DNA from: Streptomyces silvae
Lineage (GTDB): Bacteria; Actinomycetota; Actinomycetes; Streptomycetales; Streptomycetaceae
Assembly (NCBI RefSeq): GCF_016745505.1
Contig: NZ_JAERUC010000147.1
Span: 1-64,000, forward strand
Direction: 5' to 3'
Length of the DNA stretch: 64,000 nt
Positions 33,111 to 36,647 of the stretch are shown one piece after another. The position numbers and the translations under genes are program-made. Positions within the stretch are counted from its first letter, which is position 1. The number at the start of each line of letters is the position of its first letter. Below the pieces are notes generated by a model, which saw nothing but the letters and a program-made list of their open reading frames with translations, did no database searches and was not told where the DNA came from.

Positions 33111-34154
33111 CTACGGCGTGATCAGGACCTTGAGCGCCGTGCGCTCGTCCATCGCCTTGTAGCCGCCCGGCACCCCGTCGAGCCCGACCGACAGGTCGAA
33201 GACCGGCGACGGGTCGATCGTGCCGTCCAGCACGTCGGGGAGCAGCTCCGGGATGTACGTACGCACGGGGGCGACGCCGCCGCGCAGCGCGATGTTCCGG
33301 TCGAACATGTCGCCGAGGTCGATGCCGGTGCCGCTGCCGTGCGGGACGCCGACGTAACCGATGGAGCCGCCGTCGCGGACGATGCCGATGGCCGTGCGCA
33401 TCGACTGCTCGGTGCCGACCGCCTCGATCACCCCGTGGGCGCCCTCCCCCCGGGTCAGCTCCCGGACGGCCGCGAGCGCCGCCTCGCCGCGCTCGGCGAC
33501 GACGTCGGTGGCGCCGAAGGCACGGGCGATGTCGGTACGGGCCTGGTGCCGGCCCAGGGCGATGATCCGTTCGGCGCCGAGCCGCTTGGCCGCCATGACG
33601 CCGCAGAGGCCGACCGCGCCGTCACCGACGACGGCGACGGTGCTTCCGGGCTTGACGGCGGCGCCGAGCGCGGCGTGGTGGCCGGTGCCCAGGACGTCGG
33701 AGAGGGCCAGGAGCGCGGTGAGCAGCCGGTCGTCGGACGCGGCCGCCGCCGGGAGCCTGACCAGGGTGCCGTCGGCGAACGGCACCCGGACGGCCTCGCC
33801 CTGACCGCCGTCGGAGCCGACCGAACCCCAGAAGCCGCCCTGGGGGCAGGAGGTGGTGAGCCCCTCGGCGCAGTACGTGCAGGTGCCGTCGGACCAGACG
33901 AAGGGCGCGACGACGAGGTCGCCGACGGCGAAGCCCTTGACGCCGGGGCCGGCCTCCTCGACGACGCCGAGGAATTCGTGGCCGATGCGCTGGCCCGGCT
34001 GCCGGGCCGATTCGCCGCGGTAGGCCCACAGGTCACTGCCGCAGATGCAGGCCCGCAGGACCCGCAGGACCACGTCGGTGGGCTGCTGGACCGTGGCGTC
34101 GGGCACCTCCTCCACACGGATGTCGTGGGGGGCATGGATCACGGTGGCGCGCAT
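33111..34154 (-). CDS. Zinc-dependent alcohol dehydrogenase family protein
   Basis: The 347-residue MDR-superfamily enzyme has catalytic zinc ligands at CGSD (about 38) and GHE (about 58-60), and the NAD(P) motif GDGAVG (about 176). The structural-zinc loop reads DGTCTYCAEGLTTSC. It keeps a C-x2-C-x7-C pattern, but the first of the usual four cysteines is Asp, so zinc binding there may be altered. Substrate unknown. It is transcribed alone from an ATG at 34154. Confidence 0.9.
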   Translation of the reverse strand: MRATVIHAPHDIRVEEVPDATVQQPTDVVLRVLRACICGSDLWAYRGESARQPGQRIGHEFLGVVEEAGPGVKGFAVGDLVVAPFVWSDGTCTYCAEGLTTSCPQGGFWGSVGSDGGQGEAVRVPFADGTLVRLPAAAASDDRLLTALLALSDVLGTGHHAALGAAVKPGSTVAVVGDGAVGLCGVMAAKRLGAERIIALGRHQARTDIARAFGATDVVAERGEAALAAVRELTRGEGAHGVIEAVGTEQSMRTAIGIVRDGGSIGYVGVPHGSGTGIDLGDMFDRNIALRGGVAPVRTYIPELLPDVLDGTIDPSPVFDLSVGLDGVPGGYKAMDERTALKVLITP

Positions 34155-34175: not shown

Positions 34176-34856
34176 TCAGATTCTGATACTCCCCTCACGG
34201 TACGCCCCGGGGGCGGCGCCGGTGGAATCCGCTGTTCCCCCGAGCACCCCCCGGGTGAGCAGGTACTGCGCGGCCAGATAGGTCAGCATGATCCAGAAAT
34301 CGTGGGCGGGGAGCTGCGGCCGGTCGGCGATGCCGGTGGCGATGAGCGCGTCGGAGAGCAGGAAAAGCGCGCCGCCGGCGGCGGCATACCGCCCGAGGGC
34401 GCCGGCCCGCCAGGCCATGGCGGCGAGCAGCAGGCTGTACCCGGTCAGCGGGACCTTCAGCTCGGCGGGGAGTCCGGGCCACAGGTGGACGAGGAACGCC
34501 ACCAGCGCGGCGGCGTACAGAAGTCCGGCGGCCGGCCGGAGCCGGGCGCGGCCGAAGAGCACGAGGTAGCAGACGTGGCCCGCGGCGAAGCAGGCCATCC
34601 CGGCGAGGAAGGCGGCGTCCGAGCCGGGCATCAGCAGGACGTCCCCGCCCCAGCCGAACAGCAGGGCGGCGACGAGCAGCCGGGGGCCGCCGCGCGCCGC
34701 CGCGGTGGCGGCGAGCAGGGGCATCAGCAGCGGCTTGGCGACGAGGTGCGCGGTGTGGAGCCCGGCCAGGAGTCCGGCCAGGTCCACGACGGCCACGGCG
34801 AGGAAGGCGACGAACAGCGGGCGCACGAGCCGGGGCGCACCCGCACGGGGCGTCAT
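34176..34856 (-). CDS. Lysoplasmalogenase (YhhN/TMEM86 family)
   Basis: The 226-residue integral membrane protein has about eight helices. The YhhN-type motifs KPLLMPLL near residue 40, FGWGGDVLLM near residue 68 and LSDALIA near residue 168 supply the conserved acidic and lysine residues. Family enzymes hydrolyse the vinyl-ether bond of lysoplasmalogens to an aldehyde and a glycerophospho compound. The ATG at 34856 overlaps the stop of the hydroxylase gene by 4 nt, so the two are made together, which points to ether-lipid turnover. Confidence 0.87.
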   Translation of the reverse strand: MTPRAGAPRLVRPLFVAFLAVAVVDLAGLLAGLHTAHLVAKPLLMPLLAATAAARGGPRLLVAALLFGWGGDVLLMPGSDAAFLAGMACFAAGHVCYLVLFGRARLRPAAGLLYAAALVAFLVHLWPGLPAELKVPLTGYSLLLAAMAWRAGALGRYAAAGGALFLLSDALIATGIADRPQLPAHDFWIMLTYLAAQYLLTRGVLGGTADSTGAAPGAYREGSIRI

Positions 34857-35749
34857 CCGGTGCGCTCGGTGGCGGCGCGCGGCTGCACGGGCGCGGTCGC
34901 GGGGGCGCCCCCGGGGCGCGAGGGCTGCCAGCCGGGACCGCGGAAGATCCGCCCGGCCCGCTCGCCCCAGCTGGTGGCCGCCCGTACGTCGCGGGCGATG
35001 GCGGCGTACTCGTGGGTGGCGACACGGAACGGGTTGTGGGTGTCGATGTTCTTGGTGAGCCCGAAGACGGGACGCTCGGTCTCGGCGGTGAAGGAGCCGA
35101 AGAGCCGGTCCCAGACGATCAGGATCCCGCCGAAGTTCCGGTCGAGGTACCCGCCCTGGGAGGCGTGGTGGACCCGGTGGTGGGAGGGGGTGTTGAAGAC
35201 GAACTCGAAGGGCCGGGGCAGCTTGCCGACCCGTTCGGTGTGCACCCAGAACTGGTAGACGAGGTTCGCCGATGAGCAGAAGGCGAGTGCGGCCGGGTGG
35301 ACCCCGCAGGCGATGAGGGGCACGTAGAACGGCCAGACGGTCAGCGAGGTCCAGGGCTGCCGCAGCGCCGTCGTGAAGTTGAACTTCCGGCTGGAGTGGT
35401 GGACCACGTGGCAGGCCCAGAGGACCCGGATGACGTGGTGGCCCCGGTGGGACCAGTAGTAGAAGAAGTCCTGGGCGAGCAGCATCAGCAGGACCGTCCA
35501 CCACAGGACGGGGACGCGCAGCGGGGTCAGTTCGTAGACGGCCGCGTAGATGGCGACGATGGGTATCTTCCACAGCAGGTCGAAGACCAGGCTGCCGAGT
35601 CCCATGGTGACGCTGGTGGCGGCGTCCTTGGCGTCGTACCCGGCGGCGTCCTCGTCCGGGTGAAGCCGGTAGGCCACCATTTCGAGGACGGTGAGCAGGA
35701 CGAAGGCGGGGATCGACCACAGCACGACATCGGGCAGGTTCGGCTCCAT
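34853..35749 (-). CDS. Fatty-acid-hydroxylase-superfamily membrane oxygenase, alkylglycerol-monooxygenase-like
   Basis: The 298-residue protein has several membrane helices and the eight-histidine di-iron pattern: H101-RGHH, H114-VVHH, and SHHRVHH at 189-195. Beyond the generic sterol-desaturase family, the stretches HHSSRKFNFTTALRQ, NLVYQFWVHTE, NTPSHHRVHH and GGILIVWDRLFGSF closely resemble animal alkylglycerol monooxygenase (TMEM195), which cleaves glyceryl ethers. It is translationally coupled to a lysoplasmalogenase. A TACGGT box (complement of 35756-35761) ends 6 nt before the ATG, suggesting a leaderless transcript. A plain sterol-desaturase-like role cannot be excluded. Confidence 0.85.
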   Translation of the reverse strand: MEPNLPDVVLWSIPAFVLLTVLEMVAYRLHPDEDAAGYDAKDAATSVTMGLGSLVFDLLWKIPIVAIYAAVYELTPLRVPVLWWTVLLMLLAQDFFYYWSHRGHHVIRVLWACHVVHHSSRKFNFTTALRQPWTSLTVWPFYVPLIACGVHPAALAFCSSANLVYQFWVHTERVGKLPRPFEFVFNTPSHHRVHHASQGGYLDRNFGGILIVWDRLFGSFTAETERPVFGLTKNIDTHNPFRVATHEYAAIARDVRAATSWGERAGRIFRGPGWQPSRPGGAPATAPVQPRAATERTG

Positions 35750-35927: not shown

Positions 35928-36647
35928 TCAGACCCCCGCCGCCCCCAGCAGCGCCCCCGCCGCGTAGGTCACCCCCATGGCCACCGCTCCCCCGGCCATG
36001 TTCCGCAGCACCGCACGCCCTGCCGGCGCCTCGCCGAGCCGTGCGCTCCACCACCCCGTGAGGGCCAGCGCCGCGAGTACGGAGAGGACGGTGACGGGCA
36101 GCCGCGCCGCGGACGGCGGCAGCACGATCGCCAGGAGCGGCAGCAGCGCGCCCACCGTGAAGGCCAGGAAGCTCGCCCCCGCCGCGTGCCAGGGGTTGGT
36201 CAGCTCGTCCGGGTCGATGCCGAGCTCGACCTCCGCATGGGCGCGCAGCGCGTCGCGCCGGGTGAGCTGGACGGCGGCCTCCCGGGCCAGCCGGTTGCTC
36301 AGCCCCTTCTCCTCCAGCATCCCGGTCAGCTCGGCGAGCTCGGCCTCCGGGGTCTCCTCCAGCTCGCGCTTCTCCGTCGCCAGCGCGGCCTTCTCCGAGT
36401 CGCGCTGGGTGGACACCGACACGTACTCGCCCGCCGCCATCGACATGGATCCCGCGAGCAGCCCCGCCAGGCCGGCCGTCAGCAGGGTGGAGCGGTCCCC
36501 GGTGGCGCCGGCCACACCGACGACGAGGCCCGCGGTGGAGACCACCCCGTCGTTGGCGCCGAGCACCGCGGCCCGGAGCCAGTTGAGCCGGGTGCCGAGC
36601 CCGCCCGGGTGAGGTTCGTCGTGTGTCTGCGCCTGGGTGTCCGTCAC
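35928..36647 (-). CDS. VIT1/CCC1-family iron or manganese transporter
   Basis: The 239-residue protein has five membrane helices and the VIT family opening LNWLRAAVLGANDGVVSTAGLVVGVAGA near residues 21-48. A MAAGEYVSVSTQRD segment is followed by a Glu-rich soluble helical region (about 85-130). In plants and yeast these proteins sequester Fe2+ or Mn2+ in vacuoles; in bacteria they are thought to export iron or manganese across the plasma membrane. It is transcribed alone. Confidence 0.92.
   Translation of the reverse strand: MTDTQAQTHDEPHPGGLGTRLNWLRAAVLGANDGVVSTAGLVVGVAGATGDRSTLLTAGLAGLLAGSMSMAAGEYVSVSTQRDSEKAALATEKRELEETPEAELAELTGMLEEKGLSNRLAREAAVQLTRRDALRAHAEVELGIDPDELTNPWHAAGASFLAFTVGALLPLLAIVLPPSAARLPVTVLSVLAALALTGWWSARLGEAPAGRAVLRNMAGGAVAMGVTYAAGALLGAAGV

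Follow-up and report, generated by a model that had tools for sequence, protein, structure and literature searches.

Organization of the oxygenase and lysoplasmalogenase genes

The window analyzed, a stretch of 64,000 nucleotides from Streptomyces silvae, contained two overlapping genes on its minus strand. The upstream gene (34853..35749) encoded a 298-aa membrane di-iron oxygenase resembling alkylglycerol monooxygenase (AGMO), with an FA_hydroxylase domain (PF04116) at residues 86-219 (35093..35494) enclosing the eight-histidine motif, and a Pfam match of 101.6 bits against a cut-off of 31. The downstream gene (34176..34856) encoded a 226-aa lysoplasmalogenase of the YhhN family, matched over its whole length by PF07947 (129.9 bits, cut-off 25.6). 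Profile searches recovered a single PF04116 gene and a single PF07947 gene in the 8.0 Mb genome. The four sequence blocks quoted for the oxygenase in the original prediction (HHSSRKFNFTTALRQ, YQFWVHTE, NTPSHHRVHH and GGILIVWDRLFGSF) were all present in its translation.

The two reading frames shared the tetranucleotide ATGA (34853..34856, minus strand), in which ATG is the start codon of yhhN, whose coordinates are counted from position 34856, and TGA is the stop codon of the oxygenase gene. The predicted four-nucleotide overlap was thus borne out, and the arrangement is that of translational coupling. Two further genes lay on the same strand: a zinc-type medium-chain alcohol dehydrogenase (33111..34154), an optional neighbour starting 21 nt beyond yhhN, and, upstream of the oxygenase gene, a VIT1-family gene (35928-36647).

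Affinity of the oxygenase with AGMO and sterol desaturases

The oxygenase was compared with human AGMO (TMEM195; EC 1.14.16.5), using a sequence of the right length in which 16 of 16 published residue positions were correct (PMC3617469, PMC7911779). The local BLOSUM62 alignment covered 269 positions of the hydroxylase part with 41% identity and a score of 498, far beyond chance given that none of 50 shuffles exceeded 50. Comparison with sterol desaturases, namely human SC5D, MSMO1 and CH25H together with four bacterial members, gave scores of 84-195. These enzymes, like the OlsE-type hydroxylases, share the FA_hydroxylase superfamily and the eight histidines with the window oxygenase but are only 26-35% identical to it over shorter stretches, and carry H or S at the place of AGMO Q162, a residue kept in nearly all AGMO-like sequences of the alignment. 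The OlsE ornithine lipid hydroxylase model (NF052566, NCBIfam) scored 40.3 bits on the oxygenase, far below its cut-off of 475.

All nine catalytic histidines of human AGMO were kept in the alignment, as were Q162, D233, N235, W243 and D244 and the NTPSHHRVHH block (essential and catalytic positions from PMC3617469 and PMC7911779). Y236, which is essential in human AGMO, was replaced by Phe in the window oxygenase and is Tyr in some of its close relatives. The main departure concerned E137, which interacts with tetrahydrobiopterin in the human enzyme and whose mutation raises the Km for this cofactor 18-fold (PMC3617469): its place was taken by Val106 (codon at 35432..35434, minus strand), so the tetrahydrobiopterin glutamate is absent. 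Nearly all members of the close clade also had V at this position, the exceptions being three with R, T or M. The glutamate was kept in human AGMO, in a 408-aa protein encoded on a Pseudomonas aeruginosa plasmid, in many Bacteroidota, in Myxococcota and in several Actinobacteria.

The window oxygenase also differed from AGMO in length (298 aa compared to 445), in being bacterial and in having its gene paired with yhhN. Its C-terminus lay about 20 residues past the GPGW block and is too short for the C-terminal membrane domain of AGMO. The corresponding Pfam model (AGMP_C, PF24858) found no match in the genome in a profile search, although it matched no control genome either. The idea that this AGMO domain might be a relative of YhhN was set aside, as the human part comprises only about 120 residues and PF24858 matched nowhere. 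The predicted AGMO-like character of the oxygenase therefore stood as far as membership of the AGMO-like part of the FA_hydroxylase family is concerned, but membership of AGMO in the strict sense fails because both E137 and the C-terminal domain are absent.

In a maximum-likelihood tree of 89 sequences with distant sterol desaturase outgroups, the window oxygenase, human AGMO and the bacterial AGMO-like proteins formed a group of 82 sequences apart from the sterol desaturases (support 94/95). Within it, the window oxygenase belonged to a clade of 18 sequences from Streptomycetaceae, Micromonosporaceae and Nonomuraea (support 100/100). A tree placing this clade beside the very distant sterol desaturase outgroups was not rejected by the AU test (p-AU = 0.44), so that the tree alone is also compatible with a grouping of the window clade with sterol desaturases. 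The phylogenetic check proposed with the original prediction thus gave a divided answer, with the free tree and the pairwise scores (498 compared to at most 195) placing the oxygenase among AGMO-like proteins and the AU test also accepting the alternative rooting by the distant outgroup. Depending on the root within the AGMO-like family, E137 was either lost in the window clade or never there.

Solved structures included no sequence relative of either the oxygenase or YhhN. The predicted model of the oxygenase (pLDDT 86) gave no significant match with Foldseek, and in a second structure comparison only the fatty acid hydroxylase Scs7p was matched with Z of at least 2 (Z = 5.3-5.7), a weak resemblance that would be consistent with the family assignment.

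The lysoplasmalogenase partner

The YhhN protein possessed, in matching motif and spacing, all eight published active-site residues (K41, G71, D72, H94, G161, S168, D169 and Y193, corresponding to K43, G81, D82, H104, G182, S189, D190 and Y213 of TMEM86A), each of them mutation-tested in TMEM86A and TMEM86B (PMC11994398). Seven of the eight were near-invariant among 86 aligned YhhN proteins; H94 was assigned from its distance to D72. A search of NCBIfam with this protein gave no match. The family includes the proven lysoplasmalogenases Rv1401 of Mycobacterium tuberculosis and YhhN of Legionella (PMC11994398, PMC9052158), the former of which shields spheroplasts from lysoplasmenylcholine (PMC9052158). 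In common with these and with TMEM86A/B, the window protein has PF07947 over its whole length and the complete set of tested residues; it differs in the coupling of its gene to an oxygenase gene. The predicted lysoplasmalogenase assignment was upheld at the level of sequence.

Conservation of the gene pair

Among 61 Streptomyces genomes (that of the window and 60 others), 41 possessed both genes, six the oxygenase alone, one YhhN alone and 13 neither (Fisher p = 5e-8, with genomes counted as independent and kinship uncorrected). The two genes were adjacent in 37 of the 42 YhhN-bearing Streptomyces genomes. Outside Streptomyces, in a phylum-wide sample of Actinobacteria, YhhN was present in 9 of 16 oxygenase-bearing genomes, which was more than expected (p = 5e-5, kinship uncorrected), with the co-occurring genes usually apart. 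Among named genomes, adjacent pairs were found in Streptomyces, Streptacidiphilus (L087), Nonomuraea (L112) and Micromonospora (L056, L058, L059), as well as in a second, divergent Streptomyces branch (L032, L034, L057). The linear plasmid p3211-1 of Streptomyces sp. 3211 also carried the pair, flanked on both sides by transposase genes and annotated as 'sterol desaturase family protein' and 'lysoplasmalogenase', with an oxygenase 58% identical to that of the window.

The exact four-base overlap recurred in 49 of 54 linked pairs, a count that includes two genomes counted twice and one frameshifted locus (L060), and it was found in both branches and on the plasmid. The pairing of the oxygenase with YhhN is real and conserved: the survey of co-occurrence suggested with the original prediction found it in most of the 60 sampled Streptomyces, across genera and on a plasmid.

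In the YhhN tree, the linked proteins did not form a single clade, a possibility that was rejected, but two groups mirroring the two oxygenase branches, which reflects either a single ancient association that has diverged strongly or two associations. The Micromonospora pairs kept E137, so that an AGMO-like enzyme with this glutamate is also tied to YhhN. Some Streptomyces had the oxygenase with no detected YhhN (G022, G028, G032, G043), indicating that the oxygenase can act alone. In two Streptomyces loci (L158 in genome G229; L170 in Streptomyces qinglanensis) the oxygenase gene was unlinked and a YhhN of a different clade was encoded elsewhere in the genome, as if a lost partner had been replaced. 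A looser association was seen in a Pseudonocardiales MAG (L119, 595-3535), where a yhhN gene and an AGMO-like gene lay on opposite strands about 1 kb apart. An ORF of Streptomyces sp. DHE7-1 containing both domains (L060, 3908-5536) was rejected as an oxygenase-YhhN fusion: a frameshift close to the 3' end of the oxygenase gene in that record accounts for it, since the usual GPPGW tail and stop codon can be read in another frame, just ahead of the yhhN ATG.

Roughly half of the Streptomyces loci had the alcohol dehydrogenase gene beside the pair, and among the linked loci examined this gene was present in none of the other genera, in none of the second Streptomyces branch and not on the plasmid. 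The predicted flow of aldehydes into this enzyme may occur at the window locus; given this distribution, it is not a feature of the unit, of which the dehydrogenase is no conserved member.

Substrate source and cofactor

The plasmanylethanolamine desaturase of the aerobic plasmalogen route (PF10520) was found in none of the 61 Streptomyces genomes; it was found in one of 25 other genomes bearing AGMO-like genes, that of the myxobacterium Corallococcus, which served as a positive control. As far as the aerobic route is concerned, a plasmalogen-type substrate in Streptomyces, if any, therefore probably comes from outside. Actinomycetes are known producers of enzymes attacking (lyso)plasmalogens (PMC5095149). 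Pterin supply was rejected as a test, since pterin-4a-carbinolamine dehydratase (PF01329) was encoded in 59 of the 61 Streptomyces genomes regardless of the pair and does not discriminate.

AGMO acts only where the sn-2 hydroxyl is free, and it does not accept vinyl ethers (PMC3617469). The published specificities of the two families are therefore complementary, AGMO cutting alkyl but not vinyl ethers and YhhN cutting vinyl ethers (PMC3617469, PMC9052158). A bacterial enzyme described as AGMO-like has a quite different substrate: PRUB680 of Pseudoalteromonas rubra, a cycloprodigiosin oxygenase, cyclises prodigiosin (PMC6667630).

Proposed function and alternative explanations

The best explanation, with a probability of about 0.5, is that the pair forms a translationally coupled two-enzyme membrane unit clearing alkyl- and vinyl-ether lysolipids. 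The AGMO-like oxygenase would hydroxylate the alkyl chain beside the ether oxygen of 1-O-alkyl (lyso)glycerolipids, and the resulting hemiacetal would collapse, releasing a fatty aldehyde from the glycerol(phospho) backbone. YhhN would hydrolyse the vinyl ether of lysoplasmalogens, unusable by AGMO, to the same kinds of products, so that the two enzymes would jointly handle both classes of ether lysolipids and yield a fatty aldehyde from each. In Streptomyces the substrates would probably originate from other soil organisms, and their breakdown would serve detoxification or provide a carbon source. The families, the active-site residues and the conserved coupling are matters of observation, and this reading of complementary specificities fits the latter two; what we infer is that the oxygenase acts on ether lipids, which way the pathway runs, and that electrons come from a donor other than tetrahydrobiopterin. 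The dedicated ether-lipid breakdown unit of the original prediction accordingly gained ground through the conserved coupling and the complementary published specificities, with the cleavage of ether lipids itself still presumptive in view of PRUB680. A bolder version, in which a bacterial ether-lipid clearance operon has an AGMO-type oxygenase without the pterin glutamate that uses another electron donor, and may even hand its product directly to the lysoplasmalogenase, is rather doubtful.

A different substrate or donor is a serious rival, because the glutamate and the C-terminal domain are missing and PRUB680 acts on prodigiosin. An AGMO-like sequence need not imply the substrate of AGMO. 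The oxygenase could possibly hydroxylate another membrane lipid, such as phosphatidylethanolamine or ornithine lipids at their acyl chains, or a lipid of polyketide-like or isoprenoid type, with YhhN acting on the lysolipids or vinyl ethers produced during this remodelling. The lack of an aerobic plasmalogen synthesis gene in Streptomyces speaks for this, as do weak matches of the ornithine lipid hydroxylase model to the window oxygenase and other family members, but the OlsE score lies far from its cut-off, nearly all residues required by AGMO are kept, including the Q162 that sterol desaturases lack, and the oxygenase is conservedly coupled to YhhN, whose only known substrates are ether lysolipids. 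The FA_hydroxylase family includes both hydroxylases and desaturases (SC5D), and the tight translational coupling and the missing cofactor glutamate would allow a changed chemistry, in which the oxygenase desaturates the alkyl ether of a lyso-alkyl lipid to a lysoplasmalogen that YhhN then hydrolyses, giving one pathway instead of two parallel ones. Such a relay is improbable, as no sequence feature suggests desaturation, nearly all residues for AGMO hydroxylation are retained, and we know of no precedent for vinyl-ether formation in the FA_hydroxylase family, the known enzyme belonging to a different Pfam family (PF10520).

That the genes are merely neighbours in an inherited core-genome arrangement is the least probable explanation. 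In its favour, synteny in Streptomyces largely extends to the entire neighbourhood (VIT1, exonuclease, subtilase), and the two genes are usually non-adjacent outside the two actinobacterial branches. However, two distinct branches of each tree contain the linked pair, and it holds where those neighbours are not found nearby, none of the window's other neighbours being found near the pair in Micromonospora, Nonomuraea, Streptacidiphilus or plasmid p3211-1. Given this comparison of linked loci, an arrangement of neighbours only is unlikely.

Relation to described systems and variation among AGMO-like proteins

A literature search that reached few subscription journals found no prior description of the oxygenase/yhhN pair, in keeping with the original prediction, which knew of no such unit in Streptomyces, and no paper joining 'lysoplasmalogenase' with 'sterol desaturase'. 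Papers joining lysoplasmalogenase with Streptomyces appear to concern a lysoplasmalogen-specific phospholipase D. Both families are known; neither the conserved pair nor the AGMO-like branch lacking the glutamate appears to have been described in the literature searched. According to published accounts (PMC3617469, PMC7911779), no other enzyme than AGMO is known to open alkyl-ether lipids, and it has proved refractory to purification. A wide bacterial family with a near-complete AGMO active site, natural variation at the pterin-binding glutamate and coupling to a lysoplasmalogenase would provide tractable proteins for probing ether cleavage and its need for pterin, and the pair would also offer a genetic handle on the breakdown of ether lipids by soil actinomycetes.

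Other AGMO-like proteins varied at the same positions. In many of those from Bacteroidota (L064-L131 loci), His stood where AGMO has the essential Tyr236, and E137 was often retained. The 408-aa protein with E137 encoded on the P. aeruginosa plasmid pPAMH19 (L136, 2998-4224) grouped with human AGMO (support 100/98) and resembled it in length after the GPGW block, with about 130 residues, which the Pfam AGMP_C model did not match. Two divergent members, encoded on Neorhizobium and Beijerinckia plasmids (L138 and L139), had Leu at the place of Q162 and Phe at that of W243. Both adjoined genes for two-component regulators, and the Neorhizobium one also lay near a heavy-metal P-type ATPase; this divergent branch may have a role in metal stress.
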